This document shows positions 9,774 through 63,256 of a stretch of 64,000 nt of DNA, piece after piece. Position numbers and translations under genes: made by a program. The DNA lies in the NCBI RefSeq assembly GCF_005876955.1, contig NZ_SSCL01000003.1, forward strand, positions 124,001 through 188,000, given 5' to 3'. The first letter of the stretch is position 1. Each line of letters begins with the position of its first letter. The notes under the pieces were generated by a model. It had not been told where the DNA came from and ran no database searches. It worked only from the letters and a program-made list of their open reading frames with translations. The DNA comes from Sinomonas gamaensis (GTDB taxonomy: Bacteria; Actinomycetota; Actinomycetes; Actinomycetales; Micrococcaceae).

Positions 9774-10084
9774 CCGTGGGATCCGGCGAAAACGTGCCCG
9801 GCCGCTGTGTGTCGCAGGCCACGATTCCCGGAATTCCGGGCCTTCACGGTATCCTTGAGAGGTTATTGGATGCCCGGTCGTATTTTTGCGATCTGTTCTT
9901 GCTCTGCTGGCCCTTGGTGCTGGCGCCCTGATAGCCCGCGATCGGCTTCCGCTGGATGGCCGCCGTGCGCGGCTGCTCCGAACGTCTCCGGTGACCGCGA
10001 GGGCGATGATCTCTATCGTGCCGCTCGCCCCCGACGTTTGTTGAGCGGCCCGCCCGGGCCCAATTGGAGAGGGATCCGACCCCT
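9774..10084 (+). promoter_or_regulatory. 311-base leader region of the DEAD-box helicase gene
   Basis: No plausible gene was found here on either strand. The stretch is somewhat richer in A and T than its surroundings around 9840-9905, which could hold the promoter of the helicase gene. If so, the transcript would have a leader of roughly 200 bases. No known riboswitch consensus was recognised. The only firm element is the ribosome-binding site GGAGAGGG at 10066-10073. Confidence 0.35.
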
Positions 10085-11911
10085 TTGAACGAAGTCATCA
10101 CCCACGAAGTCCTCGTGGACGACTCGGGCGCCGAGGTGCTCGAGACAGAAGAAACCATCACCAACGACGCCCCCGTGCGCCAGGAGGCCCAGAAGACCTT
10201 CAGCGACTACGGCGTTGCCCCGGAGATCGCCCAGTCGCTGGCCGACGCCGGGATCCTGCACCCGTTCCCCATCCAGTCGATGACCCTCGGCGTCGCGCTG
10301 AGCGGCCACGACATCATCGGGCAGGCAAAGACGGGAACGGGCAAGACGCTGGGCTTCGGCATTCCGAGCCTCCAGCGAACCCTTGCCCAAGACGACCCCG
10401 ACTACGCGAAGCTCCCGGTCCCGGGCGCTCCTCAGGCACTCATCGTCGTCCCCACCCGCGAGCTCGCCGTCCAGGTCTCCCAAGACCTCAAGACCGCAGC
10501 AAAGCGCACCAGCCTGCGCGTCGAGGTCATCTACGGCGGCCGTGCCTACGAGCCGCAGATCGAGTCGCTCCAGCGCGGCGTCGACGTGATCGTCGGCACG
10601 CCGGGCCGCCTGATCGACCTGCACCGCCAGCGGCACCTGAACCTCAAGAACGTCCGCATCGTGGTGCTCGACGAGGCCGACGAGATGCTGGACCTCGGCT
10701 TCCTCCCCGACGTCGAGACCCTCCTCGGCGCGGTTCCGGCGGTCCGCCAGACGCTCCTGTTCTCTGCGACGATGCCCGGGCCGGTCGTGGCCATGGCACG
10801 GCGCTACATGAGCCGCCCCACCCACATCCGCGCCACAGATCCGAACGACGATTCGATCACCAAGAAGGACATCCGCCAGGTCATCTACCGGGCGCACCAT
10901 CTCGACAAGGACGAGGTCGTGGCCCGCATCCTCCAAGCCGAGGGCCGGGGCCGGACGATCATCTTCACGAAGACCAAGCGCACTGCGGCGAAGCTCGCCG
11001 AGGAGCTTGTGGACCGGGGCTTCGCTGCCGCGGCCCTTCACGGCGACCTCGGCCAGGGCGCTCGCGAGCAGGCTCTTCGAGCCTTCCGCAACAACAAAGT
11101 GGACGTCCTGGTCGCTACGGATGTCGCAGCGCGCGGCATCGACGTTGAAGACGTGACCCACGTCATCAACTTCCAGTGCCCTGAGGACGAGAAGGCATAC
11201 CTCCACCGCGTGGGCCGCACTGGTCGCGCCGGGCACAAGGGCACCGCCGTGACCTTCGTGGACTGGGAGGACGTCCCCCGCTGGGGCCTCATCAACAAGG
11301 CGCTCGGGCTGGATGTGCCCGAGCCTGTCGAGACGTACTCGTCGTCGCCGCACCTGTTCTCCGATCTGGATATTCCCGAGGGCACAAAGGGCCGCCTCCC
11401 GCGGCACAAGCGCGTCCTCGAGGGGGTCGAGGCTGAGGAGCTCGAAGAGCTCGGCGGCCCCGGCAAGAAGCCGCGGAACCGCGCCGGCAAGGGCCGCGGG
11501 AGAGAAGCAGGCGAGAAGCGCGAGAAGCGTGCTCCACGGGAGAATCGCGCCAGCACTGATCAGCAGCCTGAGGGCGAGGGCGAGGCCAAGGCCGAGCGCG
11601 CTGCGGGCGAAGGCAAGCACGGGCACGGGCGCGGGCGCTCGGACCGCCAGGCCCGCTCGGAGACGCGCGGCGAGGGCGGGCGCCGTCGTCGGCGTACAGT
11701 CCAGGGCGATGGCCACGAAGCGGCCGGGCGTCCTGCGAAGGACTCCGCCAAGGGCGAAGGCGAGCAGAGCCCGGCGGCGGCCGCCGCCGTCGTCTTCCTT
11801 CAGGGCGAGGCGGCGGAGGGCGTGGATCGCGGCACGCTGGCTGCGCGCCGTCGTCGTTCGCGGACCCGCCGTGTCGAGGGCGAGGTCGTGAGCCGCACGC
11901 AGGCCGAGTAG
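10085..11911 (+). CDS. DEAD/DEAH-box RNA helicase
   Basis: A 608-residue ATP-dependent RNA helicase. The N-terminal half has a Q motif, Walker A AKTGTGKT, PTRELAVQ, GTPGR, DEADEM (Walker B) and SATMP. The C-terminal RecA domain has IIFTKTK, ATDVAARGIDVE and HRVGRTGRAG. After about residue 440 comes a long highly charged tail rich in Arg, Gly, Glu and Lys, typical of actinobacterial RhlE/CsdA-like proteins acting on ribosome assembly or mRNA decay. The TTG at 10085 is preferred because GGAGAGGG lies 11 bases upstream; a TTG at 10064 would start before that site. Confidence 0.92.
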   Translation: MNEVITHEVLVDDSGAEVLETEETITNDAPVRQEAQKTFSDYGVAPEIAQSLADAGILHPFPIQSMTLGVALSGHDIIGQAKTGTGKTLGFGIPSLQRTLAQDDPDYAKLPVPGAPQALIVVPTRELAVQVSQDLKTAAKRTSLRVEVIYGGRAYEPQIESLQRGVDVIVGTPGRLIDLHRQRHLNLKNVRIVVLDEADEMLDLGFLPDVETLLGAVPAVRQTLLFSATMPGPVVAMARRYMSRPTHIRATDPNDDSITKKDIRQVIYRAHHLDKDEVVARILQAEGRGRTIIFTKTKRTAAKLAEELVDRGFAAAALHGDLGQGAREQALRAFRNNKVDVLVATDVAARGIDVEDVTHVINFQCPEDEKAYLHRVGRTGRAGHKGTAVTFVDWEDVPRWGLINKALGLDVPEPVETYSSSPHLFSDLDIPEGTKGRLPRHKRVLEGVEAEELEELGGPGKKPRNRAGKGRGREAGEKREKRAPRENRASTDQQPEGEGEAKAERAAGEGKHGHGRGRSDRQARSETRGEGGRRRRRTVQGDGHEAAGRPAKDSAKGEGEQSPAAAAAVVFLQGEAAEGVDRGTLAARRRRSRTRRVEGEVVSRTQAE

Positions 11912-50124: not shown

Positions 50125-50150
50125 TCAGACGTTGAAGCGAAACTCGACCA
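50125..50150 (-). repeat. Detached 3' end of ychF, copy 1 (island junction)
   Basis: On the minus strand the bases encode LVEFRFNV followed by TGA, the usual C-terminal end of YchF. There is no ychF upstream of it. It shares TTGAAGCG-x-AACTCGACCA with the copy at 53022-53042. It is taken as the outer boundary of an integrated element. Confidence 0.7.
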
Positions 50151-50387
50151 GACTCCGGCACGGAAAACCCATTCGGACCACTTCTACCTCCCGCTGGTGA
50201 GGTGCTCCACTCTGCCAGTGGGGCAGCAGCACGATGCTACGCGACGCGCTCGGGGACCTGATGGCGTGCGACGGCGAGACGGTCGCTGCCCACACGAGGC
50301 GTGGCGCCGCCGTCGTGCGCCTTGGAACGGCTGCTGAGAAGCGGCAGCCGTTCCCGCCGGGCGCCGCGGCTGATCCCGGCAGGAAGG

Positions 50388-51164
50388 CTAGGGCTGCACC
50401 ATTCGCTGGTCGGTGTTCGTGTAGCTGATCGAGTCTGCCGTGGCCCCGACGAGGCCCATGGTGACCCTGAGGAGCCCGGGCGCGACGTCGTCGAGCGGTG
50501 GAGGCGTGTCGGTGCCGAGCGACAGGGTGCGCCCGTCGGAGGTCGTGCCGGTGACCGACCCCAGGTAGACGCTCACGTGCCCACTGAGCACCATCTTGTC
50601 CGCCGACGTGACGAGGCCGGGGCCGTCGGCGTGCCGCACGGTGAGGGTGAAGCCGGTGATGGTGATCGAGTCCGCGGTGATCTTCAGGGCGCGCTGGCCG
50701 CTGCCGTCGGCGGTCGGCACGGTCACGATGCTGACCGAGCTGAGGCCCGCGAAGGACAGGCTCTGGGAACCCATCGAGGCCGGCGTCTTGGTGAAGACCG
50801 TCGTCCCGCTGTCCCGGGGCGCCGCCACCGGAGCGCTGGACGCCGGCTCGGGGGTCGTGGTGGGGTCCGGGGTTGCCGTCGACCCGACGCCCGGGACCGC
50901 CGGGGCGCTGGGGCTGGACCCCAGGTCCGGCAGCAGCGTGCCGGGGACGGTCGGGAGCGGCCCGGGGGCGGCCGGCCCCGGGATGGGAGTCCCCGGCCCC
51001 GGCTCCGAGGGGCTCTGCGTCGAGGCGGCGCAGGAGACCAGGATCGGCATGCACAGCTCCGTCGGGGCGCTCTCAGGGGCCCGAGCGGCTCCGAGGGTGA
51101 AGGGCAACGCGAGGACCGCGCCGGTCAGGACGGCGGCCGGGCCGCGGAGGCGGCGTACGTTCAC
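50388..51164 (-). CDS. Secreted proline-rich protein linked to DUF6114/DUF6230
   Basis: A 258-residue protein with a signal peptide (AAVLTGAVLALPFTLGAARA), a Pro/Thr-rich linker (about residues 45-105) and a C-terminal domain of about 130 residues (VFTKTPASMGSQSLSFAGL, ALKITADSITITGFTLTVRHADGPGLVTSADKMVLSGHVSVYLGSV). The beta-rich pattern of the last part resembles that of DUF6230 itself. The GTG at 51164 overlaps the DUF6114 stop by 4 bases, so it is the third gene of the operon. Function unknown; extracellular location likely. Confidence 0.65.
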   Translation of the reverse strand: MNVRRLRGPAAVLTGAVLALPFTLGAARAPESAPTELCMPILVSCAASTQSPSEPGPGTPIPGPAAPGPLPTVPGTLLPDLGSSPSAPAVPGVGSTATPDPTTTPEPASSAPVAAPRDSGTTVFTKTPASMGSQSLSFAGLSSVSIVTVPTADGSGQRALKITADSITITGFTLTVRHADGPGLVTSADKMVLSGHVSVYLGSVTGTTSDGRTLSLGTDTPPPLDDVAPGLLRVTMGLVGATADSISYTNTDQRMVQP

Positions 51165-51568
51165 TCCGCCCTCATTTCTCGCTTGGTGCCCGGCGGGCCC
51201 ATCCACGCGACGACCAGGACTCCGCCGACACCGGAGAGGAGCATGCCGATGATGAAGCCGCCCATGTTCACACCGACGAGGGAGTAGATGGCCACCACGA
51301 GCGTGAGGATTCCGTAGAACACGTGGTGGGTCGGCATGGTGACTGAGAGGACTCCCAGCAGCACCAAAGCGATCGGGATGACGGTGGCTTGGAGCCCTTC
51401 GATCCCGAGCTGGACGTGCAGGTGGCCGAGATCGAGCTGCCCGGAGAAGAACATCTCTATCCCCCCGAGGGCGGCCAGCAGGCCGCCGATGGACGGTCGA
51501 CTGCGGCGCCAGTCGCGGAACCCGGCGGCCCGTGCGGGTGCCGTGGCGCTCCGAGACTGTAGGGGCAT
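51161..51568 (-). CDS. DUF6114 membrane protein
   Basis: A 135-residue protein with four hydrophobic helices (RPSIGGLLAALGGIEMFFSGQ, ATVIPIALVLLGVLSVTMPTHHVFYGILTLVVAIYSLVGVNMGGFIIGMLLSGVGGVLVVAWMG), which fits DUF6114, found next to DUF6230 in Streptomyces and relatives. The ATG at 51568 follows AGAGAGGG; an ATG at 51610 overlaps the DUF6230 stop and would add 14 residues. It probably partners the two secreted proteins around it. No enzymatic motif is visible. Confidence 0.75.
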   Translation of the reverse strand: MPLQSRSATAPARAAGFRDWRRSRPSIGGLLAALGGIEMFFSGQLDLGHLHVQLGIEGLQATVIPIALVLLGVLSVTMPTHHVFYGILTLVVAIYSLVGVNMGGFIIGMLLSGVGGVLVVAWMGPPGTKREMRAE

Positions 51569-51600
51569 GCCGCCCTCTCTGCTCGTCGACGCGCGGCCGC

Positions 51601-52215
51601 TCAGAAGCATCCCATGGACCCATCAGTCAGCTGCATGCTCATCCCGGTCAGGGTGAACACCGAGGCCTGCGTGCTCCAAGCCGTCTGCTGCAGGTTCGTG
51701 ATCGAGATGCTGCCGGAGTCCTGCGCGAAGTCGCCGGCAGAGCCCTTCGCCGCGGTGTTGACCGTCGAGGCGTCCACGCCGATGCGGATGTTGCCGAAGG
51801 CCGCATCGCCCTTCAGCCCGGTCATCCCGATCTGCAGGTCGGAGGCCGATGCGGGGCTGCCGCCGCCGCCGGCCTTGATGAGCACGCCCACCTTGCCCAG
51901 CGGAGTGTCTGTGACCACGGACTGGCACAGGTCGGAGAGGGTGGCGCTCTTGATGTTGGCAATCGCCACCGGATGCTCCTTGCCTTCGGTGTCCTTGGCG
52001 ACGCCCGCGTACTGGGAGAACCCGGTTCCGTCGAGCTTGGAGGCGCCGATCTGGAACTGGCTGCCGGACACGGCGAAGGAGACGGGCACCGCTCCCTCGG
52101 CGACGCCGCCCATCAGGAGTGAGGCGGCGAGGGCCGAGGGCACGGCGACGAGCATGATGCGGCCTGCGTGGGACGCGCGCATCCTGCGGACACGCTGCGA
52201 GATGGGGAACTTCAT
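51601..52215 (-). CDS. DUF6230 secreted protein
   Basis: A 204-residue exported protein. After a signal sequence (GRIMLVAVPSALAASLLMGGVAEGA) the mature part begins VPVSFAVSGSQFQIGASKLDGTGFSQYAGV, followed by PVAIANIKSATLSDLCQSVV and ending NLQQTAWSTQASVFTLTGMSMQL. This pattern defines DUF6230, sometimes mislabelled cholesterol esterase; no catalytic triad is visible. It is the first gene of the operon and is divergent from the TetR gene. The promoter has -35 TTGACT and -10 TATCTT 18 bases apart, overlapping a palindrome. Confidence 0.8.
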   Translation of the reverse strand: MKFPISQRVRRMRASHAGRIMLVAVPSALAASLLMGGVAEGAVPVSFAVSGSQFQIGASKLDGTGFSQYAGVAKDTEGKEHPVAIANIKSATLSDLCQSVVTDTPLGKVGVLIKAGGGGSPASASDLQIGMTGLKGDAAFGNIRIGVDASTVNTAAKGSAGDFAQDSGSISITNLQQTAWSTQASVFTLTGMSMQLTDGSMGCF

Positions 52216-52261
52216 CGATCCTCCTGGAACAGGGCCCGCCCCGAGCGGCGGAACTCGGTCG

Positions 52262-52291
52262 AAGATACCGAGCCTGTTGACTGCTAGTCAA
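52262..52291 (-). promoter_or_regulatory. Promoter and TetR-type operator of the DUF6230 operon
   Basis: On the minus strand, -35 TTGACT (52286-52291) and -10 TATCTT (52262-52267) are 18 bases apart. The palindrome TTGACTGCTAGTCAA at 52277-52291 covers the -35 box. A repressor bound here would block RNA polymerase, and the divergent TetR gene starts 45 bases away. Confidence 0.7.
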
Positions 52292-52335
52292 TAGGCATCC
52301 GGTACGGAGTCCCGCCGATCAGTAGACTTTCTGCT

Positions 52336-52935
52336 GTGTCCGAGCCGCAGCGCGCCCGCCTCAGCCCTCAGGACCGGAGGGCGCAGCTCATCGCGGTCGG
52401 GGTGAACTTCCTGACCGATCACGCGCTGGACGAGCTGACCATGGACGAACTCGCCCGCCGGGCAGGCGTCTCGCGCCCACTGGTGTTCCACTACTTCGAG
52501 ACCCGGCAGGGCATGCACCGCGCAGTGGTCACGACGGCGCGGGACAGCCTGCTCGTCGCCAGCGTTCCCCGCCAAGACCTCGCGCCGCGCGAGCGGATCC
52601 GGGACACGCTGCTGAGAATCGTCGAGTTCGTGCAGGAGCACCGCGGAACTTTCTACTCGCTGGTCAGGGGCACTGCCAGCGGCGACCCCGCGGTGCGGAG
52701 GATCGTGGACGAGTCACGGGACCTGAACGCCGAGCGCCTGCACGAATCCTTCATCGAGCTCGGCCTGGCGGACACCACGCTGCTGCGCGTCGCCCTGCGG
52801 TCCTGGGTCGCGTTCGCCGAGGAGACCCTGATCAGCTTGGCAATCGAGCGGGAGACGAGCGCCGACGACATCGTGCAGTTCCTGGAGGCGTCCCTGCACG
52901 GGATGGTCAACTCCATCTGCGACCAGCGGCTCTGA
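52336..52935 (+). CDS. TetR/AcrR family regulator divergent to the DUF6230 operon
   Basis: A 199-residue protein with an N-terminal helix-turn-helix (VNFLTDHALDELTMDELARRAGVSRPLVFHYFETRQGMHRAVV) and a helical ligand-binding domain (RIVEFVQEHRGTFYSLVRG). Divergence from DUF6230 across a region with a 15-bp palindrome suggests that it represses that operon and itself. It starts with GTG at 52336. The ligand is unknown; fatty acids or lipids are possible because similar short TetR proteins sense them. Confidence 0.8.
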   Translation: MSEPQRARLSPQDRRAQLIAVGVNFLTDHALDELTMDELARRAGVSRPLVFHYFETRQGMHRAVVTTARDSLLVASVPRQDLAPRERIRDTLLRIVEFVQEHRGTFYSLVRGTASGDPAVRRIVDESRDLNAERLHESFIELGLADTTLLRVALRSWVAFAEETLISLAIERETSADDIVQFLEASLHGMVNSICDQRL

Positions 52936-53017
52936 GGGCCGAGCGCGCGGCGACTCTTCGAGCCCCCTTCTTGGACTTATCGAGTCCTAGGTCGAGAGGC
53001 TTGGTCAGACGCCATTT

Positions 53018-53046
53018 CTAGACATTGAAGCGGAACTCGACCACGT
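53018..53046 (-). repeat. Detached 3' end of ychF, copy 2 (attachment site, left)
   Basis: The minus strand encodes VVEFRFNV followed by TAG, the standard end of YchF, without the rest of the gene. CGGAACTCGACCACGT at 53031-53046 is repeated exactly at 62178-62193 inside the present ychF gene. This pair of 16-bp direct repeats marks the ends of island 2. Confidence 0.85.
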
Positions 53047-53204
53047 TTCGTAACCAAATAACCTCTGCGGTCTCCATAGTCACTTGCAGTTCCGGGGCGC
53101 TCTGGCGCTTATGCTAACCTCCTACCACCGGGTCGGAGAGAACTCTTCCCAAGGGTATCCGGAAATGCGGCGCCAATGGGGTTGCTTGGAGGGGGGTCAC
53201 CGCC

Positions 53205-53946
53205 ATGGCATGTTCGAATTGTGGATCCGACTCCTTAATCAAGGCACATCTAATCCCACGCGTTTTCGCGGTCGAAGTGAAGGTGGGGAAATCTTTCGCG
53301 GCGAACGTCTCGGAGAGCGGTACTTACCGGCAGACCCAGTCTGGAATTTCGGACAATACAATTCTGTGCGCTGAGTGTGACGGAGTGCTCGGGAACTACG
53401 AGAACTACGCTCATGGAGTAACGAGACGCGTCCGTGCGACAGAAGATGCGAAACCGTGGCAGCAGCGGACACTTGCCGATGTGGACGTCACGATGATTCT
53501 AAAGTTCTGCGCAGGGATTCTATACAAGTTCAGTTGACCAGCACGGAAAACGGGAGAGTGGAACTTGGTAGGTACCAAGAATCGCTCAGACACTTTCTCT
53601 TCCATGCCGGCGCTCCCTGCCCAGCAGAACTCGACGTGCTTGTACTCCGTCCGCTCCGATACGCGGATGACGCTGACGTGTTTGCGTACCGTGCGCCTCG
53701 CGACGACAGGCCCATGGCCTCAACTTCTATCGCATGATGCTGGGCGGGGTCATATTCTTCGTCAACCTCGACGCGCGCGGAACGGAACTGCACGCTGCAA
53801 GAGGTGACTTCATCAAAACGCATACGAATGCCATGAAATTTACGATGGTCGATGCCCTCAAGTTCGAAGAGTTCACAGTGCCAGCGGGCCTCGTCCACAC
53901 AGGAAGGCTTTCGGGCTTCCTGGATCGTGTCGTGCCGCGCGGGTAG
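53205..53946 (+). pseudogene. HNH-like zinc-finger protein, disrupted by two frameshifts
   Basis: An ATG at 53205 follows GGAGGGGGG and opens a protein beginning MACSNCGSDSLIKAHLIPRVF, with a second cysteine pair in ILCAECDGVLGNYE, like HNH or His-Me-finger proteins. The reading frame stops at 53535. The protein continues in the next frame at about 53530-53710 (GRVELGRYQESLRHFLFHAGAPCPAELDV), then in the third frame to 53946 (HGLNFYRMMLGGVIFFVNLD). Both shifts are of the same direction (loss of one base each). The full product would be about 245 residues. Sequencing errors are an alternative explanation. Confidence 0.6.
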
Positions 53947-54337
53947 CTCGCGCCGACTGTCAAGTGAGGACAGCACACAACGACCGCCTGATACTTTGCT
54001 GCCTGTGGGCTCGCCAAACGAAACAGGAGCCCATCTACCGCTCAGGCGTCGCTAACTGCGCTCCGCTTTGCATTTCAAATTTGGGTTTCGTCAAGGTCGA
54101 CTCGGCGCTCGATCGCTATATCTACACCCGCGGGTTCGCGAAAGAATGCGCGGGCCTTGGCCTTGGTCTTTCTGGTGCGCGCGCCGTCGACCACCTCAAG
54201 GTAGACCTCAATCACGTCGATCTGAACGGCAGCCCCTAGTTGCGTCGGTGAAGAAGCCTTCCCATGGAGATCGCGGACTTCCATCTTGACCAGCTATCCG
54301 TCAATTGCATGACTCACTCCGGGATCGGTTCGTGGCG
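53947..54337. other. 391-base region without a convincing gene
   Basis: The region holds only short open frames. One on the minus strand at 54075-54284 (69 residues, containing AAVQIDVIEVYLEVVDGARTRKTKAKARAF) looks protein-like and might be the end of a lost gene, but it has no ribosome-binding site or recognised family. Composition is AT-richer than the chromosome. No repeat or RNA was recognised. Confidence 0.3.
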
Positions 54338-54886
54338 TTAGCGGTCCAGTACCGCCGCCAGCTCATGCCAGTAATCGACAGGCAGCCGCTCGACCCCATC
54401 CACTCCCTTGAGGGGCCTCGTAGCGGGGCTGGCTGAGGAAGTTGACGGCAGGACAAACACGAGGCTTTCGCCCACTGCCCAATCCTGCGGGCCGAAGTAG
54501 ACATCGCCGTAATGCCCGATGAATGGACCGAAGGATGCTTCCACACCAAGCTTCCCGGTGAAAGCTACGACTTTGGGCCGGAGGGGTGTCAGACGGTGAA
54601 TCAGGCTCTGACAATCAAAGCTGCCACTTTGCTCCTCGCTGCCGTCCATGCCGGCATGGGTCTTGCTGAGGTCGGTCAGACCGATCCCAAAGACAGGCAG
54701 TAGGTGGTCGTCGGTCGGCTTCAGCAGATTTGGGGTGAACCCGGCCTCGTGCAGCCAGCGGTAAAACCGGTTGCCGCCGCTGCTATAGTAATGCCCGGCT
54801 TCGGCGCTCCTCTTCCCGGCGGAGGTGCCAACGAAGACAACGTCAAGATCAGGGCCCATGATGTCCGGAAGCTTCTCCCCCGCCAC
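54338..54886 (-). CDS. mug: Mismatch-specific (uracil/thymine) DNA glycosylase, Mug-like
   Basis: A 182-residue glycosylase of the uracil-DNA glycosylase superfamily that removes U or T mispaired with G. It has DLDVVFVGTSAGKRSAEAGHYY and GNRFYRWLHEAGFTP (the region that holds the catalytic motif), VVAFTGKLGVEASFG, and a final VFVLPSTSSASP where the minor-groove wedge normally lies. The GTG at 54886 follows GAAGGAGGCA. It lies in island 2 with its own upstream region and is not obviously linked to the neighbours. Related genes are frequent on actinobacterial islands and plasmids. Confidence 0.8.
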   Translation of the reverse strand: MAGEKLPDIMGPDLDVVFVGTSAGKRSAEAGHYYSSGGNRFYRWLHEAGFTPNLLKPTDDHLLPVFGIGLTDLSKTHAGMDGSEEQSGSFDCQSLIHRLTPLRPKVVAFTGKLGVEASFGPFIGHYGDVYFGPQDWAVGESLVFVLPSTSSASPATRPLKGVDGVERLPVDYWHELAAVLDR

Positions 54887-55337
54887 ACTGCCTCCTTCAG
54901 GATGCACCATCGCCCTCGCGAGCAAGCAAGCACGTGCTGGACGTTTTATCACATGTCCTTGCCTTCGACCGCTTCCGAGTGGAGGGGGCTGCAACGTCAT
55001 TGGCAACTTCAGTCAGCACAACGAGACCGAGCCCAACCCTGAAGGGCCCTTCACCGCCGTCGTTACCGGAGGTTAGAGCGCAAACCCAAATTTCCCCACG
55101 TTACGAAGCCGAATATTGTCACGCGTAGCTGTGTCAGATCTGAGGTGAAGAACCGGGCCACAGGTTAAGGGGCTCTTCGTGTTCCCGCGGAACGCGAAGA
55201 GGCCTCAACGGGTCTGCGTATTAGGCGAGAACTGCGAGTCCACCCCGAAGTGCCGACCCGCAGCAGGGCGGCGTCGGACCGTGACCCCCGCTTGCCCACA
55301 CGATCTCGTTGATACGCCGAGTCGGCAGGATGTTCGG
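54887..55337. other. 451-base intergenic region of island 2
   Basis: No gene is supported on either strand. It should contain the promoter of the mug-like gene; a TGTGATAAAA stretch on the minus strand near 54950 is a weak -10 candidate. A hairpin at 55169-55204 probably serves the STAND operon. The rest shows no repeat or known RNA. Confidence 0.4.
55169..55204 (-). terminator. Hairpin downstream of the STAND operon
   Basis: GGCTCTTCGTGTTCC pairs with GGAACGCGAAGAGGCC with one G-U and one bulge, around a 3-base loop. It lies 134 bases after the stop of the 391-residue gene on the minus strand and is the nearest strong hairpin. Confidence 0.5.
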
Positions 55338-56513
55338 CTACTGCGGGTCGTCTTTGCTCGATATTTGGGTGGTCGGCGCTGGCCACGCCTCGCCCGTATT
55401 GACAAGGATGCGCGCTTCGAAGCGATCTTGCATGCCTTCGACTTGGTCCATGTTCATTGTGTGCGACTCGATCCTGGCGGCATCCGCAATTGCTTGAGTG
55501 GTAAGCCAAAGAATCTGACCGGTGGCCAGGAACGGCCCGATGGGTTTGGTCTCGAATCCGACGATGGGTTCTCCGGGCACCGGAGTCTCGACATTAAACA
55601 CCGAAATCTGCCATGGTTCGCCGAACAGAACCAGTTCGCCAAAGATGTCACCCATAGTGAGGTCTAGCAGCCGATCCACCTCGCCGAACGCATCGGCGTA
55701 GACCCGTGCCGGGCCCAAAAGCGACTCGACGACCTCGTTCATCGTGTGGGAGCGGTACTCGGCACGCGGTAGAGCGAGATTCGGCTCGTGGTCATCCACG
55801 GCGTCGGCTGACAGGCGCTCCTTGAGTTCGCGCCGAGCAGCTCGCAACGCGGCCTTCGCGTCCTCATCCAAGGCAGCCAGTGCAGCGTCAAAGTCGACCC
55901 AAGCCTGGGACTTCGTCAGCGCCTGGCTCACTTCGCGGGCAGCCTGGTCTAGTTGTGAAGCACCCATCGAGTCCGCGCCGAGCAGGTCCGGCACTGAAGG
56001 CGGCGCGGCCCTCTGGTTCAGGCCGGAAGCGAACTCCTGCTTGCGCCAGATGTACCGCAGCGTCATCTCTCCGGTCGTCAATGGGGTGCTGGGGGCCAGC
56101 TGCGGCGCACGAAGAATCGGGTAGCCCGCCAGTGAAGAGCGCAACCAACCCAATGTGCTCCAGTGCGCGCCTTCCAACTTCGCAGCCATCTGTAACCACT
56201 TGTCCAACTCACCCTGGTCGACCACAGGCATCCCGAACCCAGCGAGGAGAGGCTGATCAAGGAGCGCAGGGATACGGCTCGCGTACATCAGGGGCTTCAT
56301 CATCATGCGGGCATGACCTTCGAGGTGCTCCACGAGCGCAGGGATGCCGACCGCTTTGTCTCCTCGTTCGTGCAACGGAAGGTTTCGGGGCAGCGTCGCA
56401 GCGAACTCCTGTACTACAGGGGTCTGCGACCATGCGTCGGCCAACCTCCAGATGGCGGACCACAGTTCAGGAGAGGTGTCTTCGCCAGGGTTCACGTGAT
56501 GTGCCTTCCACAA
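55338..56513 (-). CDS. Unknown partner protein of the STAND NTPase
   Basis: A 391-residue cytosolic protein with no recognised domain. The N-terminal third is helical (LWSAIWRLADAWSQTPVVQEF). The middle (AALAALDEDAKAALRAARRELKERL) is a likely coiled coil. The C-terminal third has a beta-rich stretch with EPWQISVFNVETPVPGEPIVGFETKPIG and a final helix (TTQAIADAARIESHTMNMDQ). The start lies 10 bases after the stop of the 879-residue gene, so the two are one operon. It may be a sensor, effector or inhibitor for that protein; this is inference from position alone. Confidence 0.6.
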   Translation of the reverse strand: MWKAHHVNPGEDTSPELWSAIWRLADAWSQTPVVQEFAATLPRNLPLHERGDKAVGIPALVEHLEGHARMMMKPLMYASRIPALLDQPLLAGFGMPVVDQGELDKWLQMAAKLEGAHWSTLGWLRSSLAGYPILRAPQLAPSTPLTTGEMTLRYIWRKQEFASGLNQRAAPPSVPDLLGADSMGASQLDQAAREVSQALTKSQAWVDFDAALAALDEDAKAALRAARRELKERLSADAVDDHEPNLALPRAEYRSHTMNEVVESLLGPARVYADAFGEVDRLLDLTMGDIFGELVLFGEPWQISVFNVETPVPGEPIVGFETKPIGPFLATGQILWLTTQAIADAARIESHTMNMDQVEGMQDRFEARILVNTGEAWPAPTTQISSKDDPQ

Positions 56514-56523
56514 GTTGTCTGAT

Positions 56524-59163
56524 TCACAGCCAGTGGCTTCGTGTCAGTTTCGTGACCGCCTCACCGACAGCCTTGGCAGCGGTGATTTCCGGTGACGTTG
56601 AGACCTGGGACACCACGTCGGTCCACGCGGAGTATTCACCGGTTCGCTCCTCAGGCGGCGGGGAGGAGTGATACGCGGCGGCCAAGTGGACGGCTTCTGT
56701 GTGCCGATACCTAACCGGCCACCCGTCTAGACGGAAGCGCCCCTGACGTTCGTAGACCACGCCGGTCATGCCGAGTGGGCCGATGGTCTCCTGCAATCGG
56801 TTGATCGTGCCGGTTGGCGCGACTTCAGTTAGGACTGTTTTCACTGCAGCGATCACCTCATGGCAATGTGCGCTCAGCTGGTCGCAGGCTTCCTGACGCG
56901 ACCGAGGGTCTCGTGGCCGCAGCCAACGATCGCGACGTCGTAGCCGCTGCCCGAGGATAAGTCGCCACAGTCGCACCGCGACCGCTGTAGGCCCATCACT
57001 GTCCTCGACCACCACGGTCGGACCCGCGAAGACGGCCGGAGCCTGTGCCGGGTCGACCCACCTCGTGGCCCCAGTTCCGGCCTGAGCCATCGTCTCCCCG
57101 TTCGCCGTCCGCCACATTGTCACGTCGACGGCCGTTTCATCGGGAAGGACAGCGTTCAGCAGAGCGGCCACCATTCCGGGGGTCTGATCGCTAATGGTGT
57201 TGTGGTCCGACTCGCTGACCCGCACCAAGGAAAATGGCAGGTGCTTGGCCACTGCCATTACCTCTGAATCGCTGAGCATTCGCATCTGGGAGGATAGCCA
57301 CACCCGGTTCTCGTCATTTTCGAGCAAGGTCTCTGGTAGGAGGACCAGTCCGTCTGCCTGTGCGCGAGCGGCGAAGTAGTCAGCGAATGAGTCGTGAACA
57401 GGAACTCGGAGCGTTGTGTGCCCAATCCCGGTGATCACGGCGTTGATCAGGCCGCTTCGAGCGACCGCCTCGCGAATGGCGGCGACATCGATCGCAACGC
57501 CGCGCTCCTCAAGAAACGCTGTGGCTCCGGCGATCATACGTTCCCACTCGAGCGGGTTTGCGTACCGCCGCCCCTCATTCAGGAGCTCAGAGAACACGAC
57601 GCCGAGCACAGCGACCGCCAGACGCAGGTCGCCGGCATTGGCGCGGTGAGACATTCGCGAGACGGTCAACTCGTATACCGAAGCGCGGTCGGTGAACGGG
57701 ACTCCACCGGCCACCAATTGCAGCGCTAGCTCAAGCAGCATCGGGTTGCCGGCGGCATCGCCCAACGCATGTTCAACCTGCGCCAAGGCCTCATGGCAGC
57801 GACGAGAAAAAGTCTCCATCTCGCCTCCACCGGATCCAGCCAAAGCGGCTGGCCCCATACCGTCGACGGTAACGGGCGAAGAGACGGCGCTCTCCGGTGC
57901 GCCCAGCACTTTCGCAGTCAACGCGAGCCTCTCCGGGAGATCAAACGCGCGCGGATACAGCCGTTGCACCGATACTGAGGACGGGAAAACGGTCGCGCCC
58001 ACCCCCTCGTCGCGCGCGACCCCGACGACCCGGGACCCATGGGCCCCTGCAAGGTGTGCGCGAAGGTCTGCGGCGAGCTCGGACCTCTCCTGCTGCGGAA
58101 TCTCCGAAACCCCATCAAGGATCACAGTCACACTCGGATCCCCCAGTACCTGGCGGCCCACCCTGCGCGACAACGCTCGACCCACGGCTGTACCCACGGC
58201 ATCAGCCACCAACCGGTCTAGCCGTCGCGCCAGATACGCCTCAGCGTGACAAACGATAACCTTCCCACCGGCACGTGCCGCACCGCGACGCCACAAACGC
58301 GACAGAGTGGACTTGCCCGACCCGGTCCGTCCGGTCATCAGGAGTGGGCCAGTGACAAGAGCGAGGTCCTCCAACCGAATAGGCGGCCTCTGCCAGCTGG
58401 CACTCAACGTCGGCACCACGAGGTCGTCGATCTGCTCGGACGCCACCGCCGCAAGGTACTCCCCCGCCAGCGGACCAGTCCAGCGGTCGACTTCCGCGAT
58501 TCGAGCGATGTCACCGACAATACCCACAATTTCGTCCCTGGAGATGAAGCGGTCATCCGAGTCCGGCAGACCAGAGCGAGTTGAGATGACCCGGAACAGC
58601 TCATTGACCCGGTCCGAAGCTTCCTTCTCGGCGTCTGGATGAGCGGGTCCAGTTTCAAGCATGGCCTTAACTTCCATCTCGGCCGAGCGGAGCAGCGCCT
58701 CGACCGCGCCCGGTTCCGAAACAATTCGCGCTCGCCCCATCACCGCGCACAAGGGGTCTTTAATATCGACCCCTAGAAGCTCTGCGACGGCGTCGTACTT
58801 GCCCTCGCGAGCCTCGTCCAACGCAGCAGCAACTGCGTGCCCCGAAGGCCCGAGAGCGCCGTCCGTGAGCAAGGAGAATTCCGAGTCCGCGCTTACCTGC
58901 AGTTCGGCCCACCGGTGAACGATGGCGAGCAGCTCGGCCCGCGCCCACGTGTAAGGCTGCAGACGAGACTTCATCTGCAATCCGCGAGCCACGAATGGTC
59001 CGGCCCCGCCCGGGTCATCCGCGATGACTTCCAGGTCCAGGGCGTCAACGGCCCCCTCGACGCGGATCCCGAGCACCGAGTCGTCAGCAGCCACCTCCAG
59101 AGCGATCAGAATCGCCTGGCCGTGTTGATAGTTGATGCCGCGGACGGTATCGACGCCACTCAC
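56524..59163 (-). CDS. Predicted nuclease-STAND NTPase (anti-phage type)
   Basis: An 879-residue protein. Residues 1-90 resemble the PD-(D/E)xK endonuclease of Cap4/Avs-type proteins: RGINYQHGQAILIAL, then ALDLEV (Asp43) and GLQMKSR (Gln63, Lys65). A NACHT-like NTPase follows, with Walker A GRTGSGKS (278-285) and Walker B VTVILDGVSEI (Asp350), and later the STAND motif HDSFADYFAARA near residue 600. The C-terminal 270 residues have no known domain and would be the sensor. The start is GTG at 59163. Similar proteins cut DNA after sensing phage proteins, but this one has not been tested. Confidence 0.75.
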   Translation of the reverse strand: MSGVDTVRGINYQHGQAILIALEVAADDSVLGIRVEGAVDALDLEVIADDPGGAGPFVARGLQMKSRLQPYTWARAELLAIVHRWAELQVSADSEFSLLTDGALGPSGHAVAAALDEAREGKYDAVAELLGVDIKDPLCAVMGRARIVSEPGAVEALLRSAEMEVKAMLETGPAHPDAEKEASDRVNELFRVISTRSGLPDSDDRFISRDEIVGIVGDIARIAEVDRWTGPLAGEYLAAVASEQIDDLVVPTLSASWQRPPIRLEDLALVTGPLLMTGRTGSGKSTLSRLWRRGAARAGGKVIVCHAEAYLARRLDRLVADAVGTAVGRALSRRVGRQVLGDPSVTVILDGVSEIPQQERSELAADLRAHLAGAHGSRVVGVARDEGVGATVFPSSVSVQRLYPRAFDLPERLALTAKVLGAPESAVSSPVTVDGMGPAALAGSGGGEMETFSRRCHEALAQVEHALGDAAGNPMLLELALQLVAGGVPFTDRASVYELTVSRMSHRANAGDLRLAVAVLGVVFSELLNEGRRYANPLEWERMIAGATAFLEERGVAIDVAAIREAVARSGLINAVITGIGHTTLRVPVHDSFADYFAARAQADGLVLLPETLLENDENRVWLSSQMRMLSDSEVMAVAKHLPFSLVRVSESDHNTISDQTPGMVAALLNAVLPDETAVDVTMWRTANGETMAQAGTGATRWVDPAQAPAVFAGPTVVVEDSDGPTAVAVRLWRLILGQRLRRRDRWLRPRDPRSRQEACDQLSAHCHEVIAAVKTVLTEVAPTGTINRLQETIGPLGMTGVVYERQGRFRLDGWPVRYRHTEAVHLAAAYHSSPPPEERTGEYSAWTDVVSQVSTSPEITAAKAVGEAVTKLTRSHWL

Positions 59164-59226
59164 AGGAAGGAATCCCCCTTGCCGTGCGCTGCGCGAAGGT
59201 ACGGGTCGTGTCGGTTCACACCAGCA

Positions 59227-59765
59227 TCACATCACACGGTACGGACACCGGGACTGCTCCATCCAGCGCAGCGCAAGGTCAGCTTTCTTCTGGATGTCCG
59301 TAACGGGCGTCGCTGACATCGCCCAAACTGGCCGGCCACTGAGGTTGTCGAGGCTGGACGCCCCCAACCCGAGGTCGTAGGCAGCATCACTTCGAGATCG
59401 CCATCCCGACAGGTTGTTGCTGAATGCGTAGGCGATGCCAAGTCGGAAGCGAAGCTGTCGGTCGTTGATCCCGTTGTGGTCTCGGAGGCCAACGCGCGCG
59501 ACGCGGAGGGCGTGTGCCAAGAGTGCTGCGCTCTTTCAGCCATCTTTCCTAGATTCGTGCCCTTAACGGGGACGGCGGCCACGCTGCCGATGGGCGGCGT
59601 TAAGTCGAACCAGGGTGCGGTCGTGATTGGAATGCTTGCATCGGTGACGGGCAGGAGTTGCAGGCCCAGCAAGTGTGTCGGGGCCTCGACTGTCAGATAT
59701 TCGATGGGGAGGAAGCAGACGAGCTCGAGCGGTTCGCGCGAGTGCCTGGCGATGTATCAGTTGGG
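59227..59765 (-). pseudogene. Degraded gene of unknown family, frameshifted and truncated
   Basis: A protein-like sequence begins near 59765 without a start codon (REPLELVCFLPIEYLTVEAP, then LLGLQLLPV and WFDLTPPIGSVAAVPVKGTNLGKMAERAQ). It shifts frame near 59525 and continues AHALRVARVGLRDHNGINDRQLRFRLGIAYAFSNNLSGW to a stop at 59227. A stop codon directly precedes it on the 5' side, at the junction with the TnpB fragment. The family is not recognised; the helical C-terminal part recalls HEPN-like proteins, but this is weak. Confidence 0.5.
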
Positions 59766-59780
59766 CTAGGTTCCTCCTCC

Positions 59781-60053
59781 ATGAGCATGCAGCCGGCGAA
59801 CCCCCAGACCGCGACTGTCATTCGCCGCGCCTACCGGCTCACCCTTGACCCGTCACCGCAGCAGGCCCAGAAGCTGTCCCAGTGGGCCGGCGCCGCCCGG
59901 TACGCCTACAACCACATGATCGCCGCGAAGCAGGCCAGCCACGGCACGGCTGGCGCGGCCATTGAACACTGCGTACTTCTTGAAGACGCGCTGACGGCGG
60001 CCTTGGGCGGTGCACCGTACCAGGGCGCCCACAGCGGCGGCTCGCCCTGGTAG
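59781..60053 (+). pseudogene. TnpB/OrfB N-terminal fragment (IS605 family remnant)
   Basis: The first 50 codons encode the helix-turn-helix start of TnpB-type RNA-guided nucleases and transposon OrfB proteins (RRAYRLTLDPSPQQAQKLSQWAGAARYAYNHM). The similarity stops near 59940, and the remaining 38 codons read antisense to a DUF805 fragment. The RuvC and zinc-finger parts are missing, so it is not functional. No tnpA or insertion-sequence end was found beside it. Confidence 0.7.
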
Positions 60054-60150
60054 CCGGCCGGCGCCTGAGACGGGTACTGCGGAGGCTGGTACTGCGGGTT
60101 CGGGTACTGCGGAGCTGAAAGGTGGTTCCCCCTGGTGTCGGATGGGTGAC
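59945..60150 (-). pseudogene. DUF805 protein N-terminal fragment
   Basis: On the minus strand a Gln/Tyr/Pro-rich part (APQYPNPQYQPPQYPSQAPAG) is followed by GEPPLWAPWYGAPPKAAVS. After a one-base shift comes VFKKYAVFNGRASRA, the hallmark start of DUF805 membrane proteins. The gene breaks off at the TnpB fragment, so its membrane helices are absent. The exact start is unclear. Confidence 0.5.
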
Positions 60151-60263
60151 GAGCCGATCGTACGTGCCGTAGGTACCCTATGGGTCAGCTGCTGTTCAAC
60201 GTATGTAGCGGCGCCGGGTCTCGTAAACCCCCACTTGAGCCGGAGACTTTGGAGACAGCATTC

Positions 60264-60305
60264 CGAGACCCGTTCACCCGGTGCATTGCCGGGCGACGGG
60301 TCTCG
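60264..60305 (-). terminator. Hairpin downstream of the OLD-family gene
   Basis: CGAGACCCG and CGGGTCTCG form an outer stem and CCCGG/CCGGG an inner one. It begins 34 bases after the stop of the OLD gene on the minus strand and is a probable terminator. A further GGGTCTCG occurs at 60217-60224. Confidence 0.6.
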
Positions 60306-60338
60306 TCTCATCTAGGAGATGTTCATGAGGCGGTTACG

Positions 60339-62144
60339 TCACCGGTTTCCGTCCAGCTGCTCGCGTAACTCATGTACTAGTCGAGCACTTGCGTGGCTTG
60401 CTAACGAGCCGGGGCCGGAAAGGTGCCCTCTCTCACGCAGACGTCTTTCCAGCTGCGTCAGCAGCAGCTTCCCGTACAGTACTTCCTCGGTAGGCTTAGC
60501 GTCATCGGGCCAGATCTCGTCCGTCCGCGGAGCACCGCCGTCGAGATAGGTCCAGTTCACTGTCCGCCGCTTGTCGCGATGCTTGTTACGCAGCTGCGGA
60601 AGCCACTCATCAATCACCTGATCCCGAATGGTCGCTGCCTCCGACTCCCGAAGCCCAGTGACAGCCGCAATGTGATCCACTGTCGCGTGATACGCCTCTG
60701 TATCACACAGAGTGGGACAAAAGACCTCGATACCGCGGTCAGAGAAAACCTTGGACCATTTCGCCAGCTCCTCTTTAGTCAAGAAGTCGCGATCTCGATG
60801 AATGATGACTCGCGGCGTGTTGACCATAAGCTCCGCCATCTCACGAAAGGCCTCGGCTGCAAAGACATTGTTGAGCCCATTAAATGAAGTAATTTTAACG
60901 TCATCTGCAGCATATCCGGCTTCCTGCAGTGCAAGTTGCAGAGCCCATGGATCCTCATCCTCAGTGCACAGGATAATTCGGCTCGACAGGTCGAGCTGAT
61001 CTAGCGCCCCGAGGTCCATGAGCATTGCCGTCAGTTCCTTGTGGCTGTCGGACTCCACCTTTCCGTCTTTCATCCACACGACCTTGACGCTATCCGACGC
61101 GCCGGTGATCAAGTGACGACTGTGCGTGCTGACTATGACTTTGCATTCAAACTCTTTGGCCACGCGTTCGAGCGCCACGCCAAGCGCCTTCTGACGAGAT
61201 GGATGCAAGTGACTGTCGGGCTCATCGACCAAGAGTAGAGCCGGCTTGAAGAGAAGAACGTACGCAAAGATCTGCGTGACCTGCAAAATACCCGTGCCCC
61301 ACAGATCCACGGGCAAGTGGTCCTTGGGGCCCGCTTCGCCGGTTGCGAGGCGAACGTCGACATATAGGTCGCGGTCTGGGTCGTACTCCACACGGAATGA
61401 CACCGGCGCCTTCAGGACTGATTCAAGAAGGCGCTCCAGTTCCTCCAAAAGCGAGCGCTCGGCCAGCAAACGTATGATGTTCCGAAACACCAGATTTGCA
61501 TCCCCGCTCGCAGCCTTTCGGAAGACCGCTGCATAGCCGCTCATCTCCTCGCGATGCGGAACCCCCGCCAGACCTGGAACATATACGCTGAACAGCTTCT
61601 TAGGATCGCTTACCACCTGGCCGAAACCGGCCGATGTTCCCGAGCGGTCGACGCCCACGTTGTTGTGGTTTCGCGCCTTGTACATCTCAATTCGGTACTC
61701 AGAGGCTACAGCGCTATCTGCAGCAACGCCTTCGAAGTCAACGACGCCGCGTTGGCCGTGGCTTCGGTTCCCATACGGGGCACCATGCCCGAGCAAGGAA
61801 AACTGGGCGACTGGGGAGTAACGGAGGCTAGCCTCAGCTACCACCTGCTGGCCGAGTTCCACCGAGGCTTGCGCACAGCTGACGGCGGTATGGATCGCCT
61901 GGAGAACGCTGCTCTTGCCAGAGTTGTTTCCTCCCACAAGATAGGTGATGGGGCCGAGCTCGATACGGGTGTCTTCAATCTTCTTGAAGTTTCGAATCCG
62001 CACAGCGTCAATTCGAAGCCGCGAAGACGCTTGCCTGGAAGGTTCCACGGACGGGTCTTCGACCTCAAACCCGTGGAGGATCTCCTCGATGTCGTCGAGC
62101 AGATGGTCACGATCGTTATCATCTGCAACGGGAGGGGCGTTCAC
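60339..62144 (-). CDS. OLD-family ATPase-TOPRIM nuclease, probable phage defence
   Basis: A 601-residue protein. An ABC/SMC-type ATPase comes first: Walker A GGNNSGKSS (71-79), Walker B LLLVDEPDSHLHPS (Asp307-Glu308) and STHS (339-342). From about residue 388 comes a TOPRIM domain: ILCTEDED (Glu395), VIIHRDRDF (Asp451, Asp453), and CDTEAY, as in OLD nucleases. No UvrD-type helicase (Gabija GajB) follows, so it is either a stand-alone OLD or a fused AriA/AriB-like protein. The GTG at 62144 overlaps the present ychF stop by 4 bases. Confidence 0.8.
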   Translation of the reverse strand: MNAPPVADDNDRDHLLDDIEEILHGFEVEDPSVEPSRQASSRLRIDAVRIRNFKKIEDTRIELGPITYLVGGNNSGKSSVLQAIHTAVSCAQASVELGQQVVAEASLRYSPVAQFSLLGHGAPYGNRSHGQRGVVDFEGVAADSAVASEYRIEMYKARNHNNVGVDRSGTSAGFGQVVSDPKKLFSVYVPGLAGVPHREEMSGYAAVFRKAASGDANLVFRNIIRLLAERSLLEELERLLESVLKAPVSFRVEYDPDRDLYVDVRLATGEAGPKDHLPVDLWGTGILQVTQIFAYVLLFKPALLLVDEPDSHLHPSRQKALGVALERVAKEFECKVIVSTHSRHLITGASDSVKVVWMKDGKVESDSHKELTAMLMDLGALDQLDLSSRIILCTEDEDPWALQLALQEAGYAADDVKITSFNGLNNVFAAEAFREMAELMVNTPRVIIHRDRDFLTKEELAKWSKVFSDRGIEVFCPTLCDTEAYHATVDHIAAVTGLRESEAATIRDQVIDEWLPQLRNKHRDKRRTVNWTYLDGGAPRTDEIWPDDAKPTEEVLYGKLLLTQLERRLRERGHLSGPGSLASHASARLVHELREQLDGNR

Positions 62145-63256
62145 TTCTTGCCTTGGCCTGCAGAGGTGATTCCATGACGGAACTCGACCACGTCGCCGTC
62201 GGCCATCACGTAGTCCTTGCCCTCAATCCGCACCTTGCCGCGCGCCTTCGCCTCGTTCATTGACCCGGCGTCGACGAGGTCCTCGAAGTGGACGACCTCG
62301 GCCTTGATGAAGCCACGCTGGAAGTCGGAGTGAATCACACCGGCGGCCTGCGGCGCAGTGTCGCCCTGGCGGATGGTCCAGGCCCGGGCCTCCTTGGGAC
62401 CGGCCGTGAGATAGGTCTGGAGGCCGAGGGTATGGAAGCCGACTCGCGCGAGCTGGTCAAGGCCGGACTCGTCCTGGCCGTTCATCTCGAGCATCTCTCG
62501 GGCCTCCTCCTCGGAGAGCTCCACGAGGTCCGCCTCGAGCTTGGCGTCGAGGAAGATGCAGTCTGCGGGAGCGACCAGTTCGCGCAGCTCGGCCTGCTTC
62601 TCCGGGCTGCCAAGCACGCCTTCGTCGCAGTTGAAGACGTAGATGAACGGCTTCGCCGTGAGGAGATTGAGCTCCTTGAGCGCGTCCATGTCCAGCTTGT
62701 CGGTCGCGGCCGCAGCGATGATCGTGTCGCCCCGCTCGAGCACCTTCTTGGCTCCTTCGAGGGCAGCGAGCTCGGAGGCGTCGCGCTTCTTGTTCTTGAC
62801 TTCCTTCTCCACGCGCGGGAGCGCCTTCTCGACCGTCTGGAGGTCGGCCAGGATCAGCTCGGTGTGAATGGTCTCGATGTCAGAACGGGGGTCGACGCGC
62901 CCCTCGACGTGCACAACGTCCGGGTCGTCGAAGACGCGGACCACCTGGGCGATCGCCTGGGCCTCGCGGATGTTCGCCAAGAACTGATTGCCGAGTCCTT
63001 CGCCCTCGGATGCGCCCTTCACGATGCCAGCGATGTCCACGAACGACACGGTGGCAGGGAGGATCCGCTCCGAGTTGAAGATCTTGGCGAGCTCGCCAAG
63101 ACGGGGGTCGGGGAGGCTCACTACGCCGACGTTCGGCTCGATCGTCGCGAACGGATAGTTCGCCGCGAGCACCTGATTGCGCGTCAGCGCGTTGAAGAGC
63201 GTCGACTTTCCGACGTTGGGGAGTCCGACGATGCCAATAGTGAGAGCCACGGTCAT
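62141..63256 (-). CDS. ychF: Redox-regulated ATPase YchF, C-terminus replaced
   Basis: A 371-residue Obg-family P-loop protein that prefers ATP and binds ribosomes. G1 is GLPNVGKST (residues 10-18), with DIAGIVKGASEGEGLGNQFL (switch II), NCDEG in place of the G4 NKxD, and a C-terminal TGS-like domain with YLTAGPKEARAW and GFIKAEVV. The normal ending VVEFRFNV is replaced after VVEFR by HGITSAGQGKK, encoded by island 2. The last natural codons are found detached at 53018 and 50125. The stop overlaps the OLD gene start. Confidence 0.95.
   Translation of the reverse strand: MTVALTIGIVGLPNVGKSTLFNALTRNQVLAANYPFATIEPNVGVVSLPDPRLGELAKIFNSERILPATVSFVDIAGIVKGASEGEGLGNQFLANIREAQAIAQVVRVFDDPDVVHVEGRVDPRSDIETIHTELILADLQTVEKALPRVEKEVKNKKRDASELAALEGAKKVLERGDTIIAAAATDKLDMDALKELNLLTAKPFIYVFNCDEGVLGSPEKQAELRELVAPADCIFLDAKLEADLVELSEEEAREMLEMNGQDESGLDQLARVGFHTLGLQTYLTAGPKEARAWTIRQGDTAPQAAGVIHSDFQRGFIKAEVVHFEDLVDAGSMNEAKARGKVRIEGKDYVMADGDVVEFRHGITSAGQGKK
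62178..62193 (-). repeat. Right attachment repeat inside ychF
   Basis: CGGAACTCGACCACGT is identical to 53031-53046. On the minus strand it encodes the VVEFR part of the YchF C-terminus. It marks the point where island 2 joins ychF. Confidence 0.85.

Follow-up and report, generated by a model that had tools for sequence, protein, structure and literature searches.

The 3' end of ychF as a probable attachment site for serine-integrase-type islands and cassettes in Sinomonas gamaensis and other Micrococcaceae

We analyzed a 64,000-nucleotide stretch of the Sinomonas gamaensis genome (assembly GCF_005876955.1, contig NZ_SSCL01000003.1, positions 124,001 to 188,000 of the forward strand; in the following, the window), in which the GTPase gene ychF has an altered 3' end and is followed by two blocks of DNA, island A and unit B (Table 1). 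The end of ychF is a docking site for successive insertions of mobile DNA, and relatives contain rows of such pieces, some of them almost identical between genera; the insertion in the window is one case of this wider phenomenon. We consider it highly probable that a clade of large serine integrases uses the 3' end of ychF as its bacterial attachment site (attB) and that island A is such an element beside the older unit B. The evidence consists of the anatomy of the sites, matching halves of a predicted phage-type attachment site (attP), their recurrence, the association with integrases in relatives and near-identical cassettes across genera, all of them apparent in the sequences.

The translated C-terminal end of the window's YchF reads VVEFRHGITSAGQGKK. 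As the original prediction had stated, the normal YchF ending is missing from this intact gene and is present alone twice in the same orientation: VEFRFNV plus a stop codon has two matches in the 64 kb, at 53018–53041 (TAG) and 50125–50148 (TGA), both on the minus strand like ychF. The mean number of matches in 100 dinucleotide shuffles of the window was 0.00, and a control pattern read backward had no match in any of 295 Micrococcaceae genomes. A chance origin of these orphan tails was rejected on both counts, and the probability that they are accidental matches or pieces of other genes is practically negligible. A longer site pattern matched the window at just the same two positions; it had been loosened after such sites were viewed and is not an independent test of 50125. 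The predicted 16 identical bases common to ychF and 53018 were found (ACGTGGTCGAGTTCCG), as was a stretch shared by all three sites (TGGTCGAGTT). For 53018 and 50125, 20 shared bases with one mismatch had been given; the mismatch is there, and the length is 19. Joining ychF to either fragment restores a VVEFRFNV end, again as predicted (363 amino acids for the 53018 join).

In the aligned sites a left P half, AGAGGTT, is followed by 17 bases, the core GGTGGAGTTCCG and the ychF end CTTCAACGTCTAG. The altered tails contain a right half composed of GAGTTCCG, nine bases and AACCTCT, which is an inverted copy of the left half; its ACCTCT encodes the Thr-Ser of the replacement tails. The P half GTTCCG-N9-AACCTCT and the ychF (B) half GTTCCG-N4-AACGTCT differ by a 5-bp shift of the outer motif, and the left ychF half has no clear outer motif. 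This shift is the same as that reported for attP versus attB half-sites of serine integrases in the relevant section of Rutherford et al. (PMC3783163). The symmetry is centered on a GT dinucleotide, the T of which is present at 144 of 149 sites; the G was imposed by the search pattern, which limits the resolution of the crossover. Based on 17 left-end and 16 right-end pairs, which are not independent, the crossover was placed around the GT, between index 0 and ~3–9, with index 3 uninformative (0.65 and 0.62). P-left (at least 5/7) is present in 91 of 124 orphan sites selected by their ychF half alone, versus 1 of 41 ychF ends under the same condition. P-type right halves occur in 6 of 53 scored ychF ends, namely that of the window and the five with an integrase in the island.

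The predicted crossover GT in the left site (attL) of island A corresponds to positions 62187–62188. The P halves at its two ends match each other (GCAGAGGT and ACCTCTGC) and are, when joined, symmetric around the core. Joining the flanks in silico yielded a normal YchF as well as the symmetric site, which gave a z-score of -2.3 when folded as DNA (one site). Judged by these ends, island A belongs to the serine-integrase type: both P halves are present and the integrase is absent. It is either decayed or mobilized by an integrase acting in trans.

We compared 15 Sinomonas genomes, one per species and including that of the window (G000; genomes are given as G numbers). The ychF tail was read in 14 of them: nine end normally in FRFNV-stop, and five are altered (the window's own, G006, G007, G010 and G011). 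The ychF end of G001, which the reading pattern missed, is probably normal according to its alignment length and a single VEFRFNV match. Orphan VEFRFNV-stop tails are located 13.3 kb (G006), 8.8 kb (G010), 12.3 kb (G011) and 57.9 kb (G007) from ychF. In G006, G010 and G011 the orphan tail adjoins an open reading frame (ORF) for a serine integrase of 449–471 amino acids (mutual identity 66–75%; Pfam domains Resolvase and Recombinase in G010). A more distant serine integrase (37–39%) is found in the islands of G007 and G236; the latter, from another genus, combines it with the tail of the window (translated from its site). The core sequences of G010 and G011 diverge by ~0.8%, but their ychF islands differ in size, gene content and tail. 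Two successive insertions at the end of ychF had been predicted. Serial insertion is supported by the same layout in G006, G010, G011, G007 and G236, whereas the second block, unit B, turned out not to be plainly foreign.

A genome scan with an integrase alignment was evaluated for the best 80 of at least 231 relatives, and a link to ychF was decided by distance alone. Among these best 80 loci, 39 are located less than 11 kb from ychF or less than 400 bp from an orphan tail (two of them, L103 and L104, are members of the query). They belong to Corynebacterium, Schaalia, Actinotignum, Kocuria, Rothia, Jiangella, Mycobacterium and others. A P.P pattern assembled from the chromosomal half-sites had a single match in IMG/VR, at position 11424 of contig L227. 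It lies directly upstream of an ORF for a 478-aa integrase (9983–11419, minus strand) with 50–51% identity to the integrases of G006, G010 and G011. The weight of this putative attP would come from its position beside a related integrase and not from the number of matches. The P.B site pattern had no match in IMG/VR, and the G007 integrase had none in a plasmid collection at 1e-40. Serine integrases were also observed 31–33 bp behind a ychF ending in FRFNVT-stop and followed by one of two near-identical sequences (L129, L131–L137), in Corynebacterium, Actinotignum, Arcanobacterium and Varibaculum; this is apparently a widely shared element.

Based on the sites and the integrases we propose the following mechanism. 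The last ~45 bp of ychF would act as attB for a clade of large serine integrases, where recombination would take place with an element whose attP is symmetric (P-left, GT, P-right). In this step ychF would keep its 5' part and gain the P-right half, which would encode the replacement C-terminus (..TS..KK), and the true ychF end would come to lie at the opposite end of the element, within the right site (attR). In the window, island A would lie between attL in ychF and attR at 53018, with its integrase absent, next to the older unit B, which would end in an attR-type site and holds Sinomonas genes. We infer that this integrase clade inserted both island A and unit B, and that the movement took place in trans.

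The genes for the TetR regulator and the DUF6230 and DUF6114 proteins of unit B are located elsewhere in seven of the 14 other Sinomonas genomes (G002, G003, G004, G005, G010, G011 and G014), which contradicts the idea that unit B is plainly foreign. In G007 they are found right behind the orphan tail, as in the window, and the stretches retrieved for the remaining six did not show them. Their position is between the equivalents of window positions 37.17 and 36.73 kb in G010 and G011, after the equivalent of 37.17 kb in G002, G003, G004 and G005, and 14 kb after ychF in G014. The identity of the block to the window is above that of the core (83.6–83.9%) in G014 (92.5%), G007 (91.8%), G004 (89.9%) and G003 (87.2%), and amounts to 86.6% in G002, where just 329 bp were compared (core 83.6–83.9%). 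It is below the core in G010 and G011 (79.5–79.7% versus 83.8–83.9%) and, for a partial block, in G005 (81.7% versus 84.0%). These identities suggest movement between lineages by an unproven route. An older insertion could have left the site at 50125 behind.

Several observations speak against ychF-directed integration as the origin of the arrangement in the window. A tblastn search with three integrases as queries, at E values up to 0.1, detected no integrase or remnant of one in the window, and the PF07508 matches of its genome are on contigs C1 and C14, with none on contig C23, which holds the window. At one genome per species, we found none that combines the exact empty site with the flanks of the window. 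Related genomes in which ychF is directly followed by the NTF2-like gene had been expected and were not found among the stretches examined; a homologue of this gene was seen in these only in G002, 1.9 kb after ychF, so the gene order that preceded insertion is unproven. In G012 an orphan tail lies 4.2 kb from ychF, yet the ychF end is normal and there is no integrase. The left half of 50125 is degenerate (4/7), and the genes of unit B, being Sinomonas genes, might have arrived by another rearrangement. Among the best 80 of at least 231 integrase loci, 41 showed no link to ychF, including most of those below 40% identity and several on short contigs, some of them too short for a decision. Moreover, the att motif was absent around the integrase in the four records inspected (three Microbacterium phages and one mycobacterial prophage) out of 217 phage records with a related integrase. 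Not all relatives of the integrase therefore use ychF.

A search of other Micrococcaceae for insertions at ychF, as the original prediction had proposed, uncovered repeated ychF ends. VEFRFNV followed by TRR has a match in 236 of 295 family genomes, and 62 of them contain two to six copies (counted by hand from the table). TRR also admits TGG, found in one of six matches in G264 and one of two in G338. Most copies are 0.5–15 kb apart and run in one direction; copies on other contigs or far off occur in G227, G236, G243, G264, G298 and G372. With a more specific site pattern, 11 of 394 genomes of the class matched; the family accounts for two of these, one being that of the window.

The arrays were studied in 63 stretches: the window, five from Sinomonas and 57 others, with the two-copy genomes G227, G243 and G372 left out. 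They comprise 149 orphan sites and 138 intervals with a median of 1.84 kb under a site filter of our own (P-left at least 5/7 or B-right at least 6/7), which admits doubtful sites. Ten of the 63 stretches have no ychF end. The commonest array site is of the attR type (P.B). An intact integrase relative was detected by tblastn in five stretches (G006, G010, G011, G007 and G236), and an integrase fragment (33–36%) lies inside the G350 array. For 15 array genomes the sole PF07508 match within the array stretch is that of G236, and in six of the 15 PF07508 has no match anywhere in the genome; these searches covered integrase relatives and PF07508 and did not extend to small serine recombinases with PF00239 only.

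The same cassettes, with exact ends, were found in more than one genome. G067 and G350 have two consecutive cassettes in common (2440 bp, 99.3%, and 1151 bp, 98.3%) at a ychF identity of 69.4%; the pair adjoins ychF in G350 and is located behind another unit in G067. G040 and G297 share 1931 bp (97.1%; ychF 69.4%), and G106 and G264 share 3033 bp (99.8%; ychF 90.6%). A cassette of 1461–1463 bp is present in G264, G315, G087 and G027 (93.6–99.6%), adjoining ychF in G315 and G087 and behind another cassette in G264. For a cassette that adjoins different neighbours, the ychF end on its left side tracks the cassette and the sequence left of the GT tracks the neighbour. The side shared by one left-end pair (G010/G011) is chromosomal, and the G264/G315 pair differs at index 3 and at one position beyond it. 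Since the left ychF end goes with the cassette, each cassette seems to bring its own.

Families of cargo genes were scanned for 96 of 203 selected cassette ORFs. Transporters, dehydrogenases and hydrolases are the commonest Pfam families (top 25 of 95), and candidate defense families have single or double matches (top 25 of 69). Genes which we take to be histidine phosphatase-like, DUF3090-like and kinase-like occur together in cassettes of several genomes (L186, L101, L197 and L080). In the arrays of G018, G037, G362, G354, G297 and G339 (L080, L211, L098, L208, L193 and L090), several cassettes start just past the stop codon with near-GCGTTATTGACG, in some cases followed by CGTTATA; these starts probably represent a second conserved left-end motif. 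Boundary ychF ends of the form FRFSN-stop or FRFAV-stop were observed at L082:4073, at L094:4951 and in the G339 array (L090), some of them with the outer motif 11–12 bases from the core.

The arrays are either remains of normal insertions or cassettes moved in trans by a special integrase or factor, and the sharing of cassettes between genera favors movement. We tentatively suggest, with slightly less than even confidence, that an integron analogue based on serine-integrase chemistry exists in Micrococcaceae and probably in other Actinomycetes. The ychF end would be its platform, and small integrase-less cassettes, each with its own ychF end on the left side and a P-type half-site on the right, would circulate between genera, with integrases supplied in trans inserting, shuffling and excising them. 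As described in part of PMC3783163, serine integrases do not efficiently recombine attL or attR with themselves or with other sites unless a directionality factor is present. In an integron analogue, attR-type sites would have to recombine (P.B with B.B or P.B). These rules disfavor such recombination, so the analogue would imply a special integrase or directionality factor. A serious, if somewhat doubtful, alternative is that prophages or integrative and conjugative elements inserted serially, each once with its own integrase, which was then lost by deletion, so that the arrays would be graveyards instead of mobile cassettes. This would agree with the integrase-bearing islands at the same site, the integrase fragment in the G350 array and the two P halves of the integrase-less island A. 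P.P-like hybrid sites in the arrays of G052, G339, G315 and G297 point in the same direction, as their outer right motif is found at N11–N12 and not at N9, as if one element had inserted at the attR of another. Serial decay fits less well with small units that have no detectable integrase relative and are near-identical across genera (G067/G350, G040/G297 and G264/G315/G087/G027), and with the 47 of 53 scored ychF ends without a P-type right half.

Homologous recombination between the repeated ychF ends of related strains could also shuffle cassettes, and no site-specific enzyme would be required after the first insertion. The sites have 20–45 bp in common and six of the 15 array genomes contain no PF07508 match, both of which would suit such a process; repeats of this length are, however, poor substrates for homologous recombination, and we regard it as unlikely. 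The narrow junctions, with the left neighbour up to the GT and the ychF end of the cassette to its right, also argue against it, although a homologous exchange would likewise fall in the shared ychF end, where index 3 is uninformative. That a tyrosine recombinase or an integron integrase drives the system is very improbable: the arrays are integron-like in form and all 15 genomes tested contain tyrosine recombinases somewhere, but PF00589 matches inside the array stretch were found in none of the 15, the two matches each in G106 and G273 are presumably XerC/XerD, and the anatomy of the sites fits serine integrases. As PF00589 was also absent from contig C23, both an integron integrase and tyrosine integration of the kind known from the genomic island SGI1 were rejected.

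The features of the window are listed in Table 1. The genes for the OLD-like ATPase and for the 879-aa and 391-aa proteins (55338–62144) are co-directional and could form an undescribed defense operon. Among 198 relatives, the OLD-like gene has matches in G000, G137 and G159 (1e-20), and the 20-kb stretches around it in G137 and G159 contain no ychF. A segment of ~155 bp just past this gene (60172–60322) is 81% identical to positions 3650–3803 of G007, located in the ychF island of that genome.

Table 1. Features of the ychF region in the window (window coordinates).
Feature	Position	Strand	Remarks
ychF	62141..63256	-	C-terminus replaced (FRHGITSAGQGKK in place of FRFNV); Pfam YchF-GTPase_C and reading of the tail
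attL of island A	62162..62213	-	ychF left half and P-type right half GAGTTCCG-N9-CACCTCTGC; P-right 6/7
Island A	53042..62187		~9.15 kb; GC 0.61 versus 0.67 in the window; no serine integrase found inside
OLD-like AAA ATPase gene	60339..62144	-	GTG start overlaps ychF stop; likely defense cargo
Fragment resembling the N-terminus of IS605 OrfB/TnpB	59658..60053	+	
879-aa protein	56524..59163	-	weak match to a P-loop ATPase region (below Pfam cut-off); cargo
391-aa protein	55338..56513	-	no match in Pfam, PADLOC or NCBIfam; adjoins 879-aa gene; cargo
Uracil/mismatch DNA glycosylase superfamily protein	54338..55006	-	cargo
attR of island A	53018..53068	-	P-left GCAGAGGTTATTTGGTTACGAAACGT, core GGTCGAGTTCCG and ychF end CTTCAATGTCTAG (orphan VVEFRFNV-stop); P-left 7/7, B-right 6/7
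Unit B	50149..53040		~2.9 kb; GC 0.695; host-like composition
TetR-family regulator	52336..52935	+	
DUF6230 protein	51601..52215	-	
DUF6114 protein	51161..51610	-	
Protein of the same conserved block	50388..51176	-	N-terminus signal-peptide-like by eye
Older, degenerate attR-type site at right end of unit B	50125..50173	-	orphan LVEFRFNV-stop; P-left 4/7, B-right 7/7

The ychF end adds an Actinomycete gene-capture hotspot with a known target sequence and with candidate integrases that are open to direct testing. The roughly 138 delimited intervals form a natural collection, whose cargo includes metabolic and candidate defense genes, and the system poses a sharp question about the recombination of attR-type sites. 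Strain engineering could also profit from integrases whose target is a highly conserved gene end.

SGI1 uses the 3' end of the GTPase gene mnmE/trmE as attachment site and employs a tyrosine integrase. The original prediction had pointed to it as a parallel; the two have the 3' end of a GTPase gene in common, but the window has a ychF site and no PF00589 match on its contig. The ychF locus is an integration site in the pneumococcal satellite prophage PPH005 as well. In the parts of the reports that deal with it (PMC6375853, PMC8637289, PMC10383233), this prophage is inserted upstream of ychF, at the promoter, and has a tyrosine integrase, in contrast to the 3' end of ychF in Sinomonas. It is the only case of integration at ychF that we found, and no description of a ychF-end system was found, in the literature excluding supplements, preprints and subscription journals. 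The main text of a paper on mycobacterial prophages (PMC10654092) makes no mention of ychF, and that of an integrase survey (PMC10083194) contains neither 'GTPase' nor YchF.

The islands of G006, G010, G011, G007 and G236 and the IMG/VR contig L227 are of the kind of Actinomycete serine-integrase prophages and elements. The P halves in the window pair to a symmetric attP with the 5-bp outer shift and a predicted crossover at a central dinucleotide, and its units lack the integrase gene. Integrons comprise the tyrosine integrase IntI, an attI site and gene-cassette arrays with attC sites. The ychF arrays resemble them in their small cassettes, one main type of boundary site and the same cassettes in different positions and hosts. 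They differ in that no tyrosine integrase was found in the 15 arrays tested, in the serine-integrase geometry of the sites and in the end of a housekeeping gene as platform.

The staphylococcal cassette chromosome (SCC) and its enterococcal counterpart (ECC) are moved by the serine recombinases CcrA and CcrB, and SCC includes units without a recombinase of their own. These cassettes at the 3' end of rlmH, and not SGI1, are the closest analogue of the ychF system. The ychF system differs from them in its gene, in the phylum, in many units of 0.5–3 kb, in up to six gene-end copies per genome and in integrases that probably belong to a different serine integrase group than Ccr. For ECC, the relevant sections of PMC6222049 describe the rlmH 3' end, serine recombinases, direct-repeat att sites, remnants and variable cargo, and state that tandem ECCs with multiple ccrAB were not directly observed. 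The likeness extends to serine recombinases, the 3' end of a conserved housekeeping gene, direct repeats of ~50 bp as att sites, repeated att sites with remnants, and variable cargo; at ychF, too, a direct repeat of the gene end marks the boundaries, and the units form composite rows.

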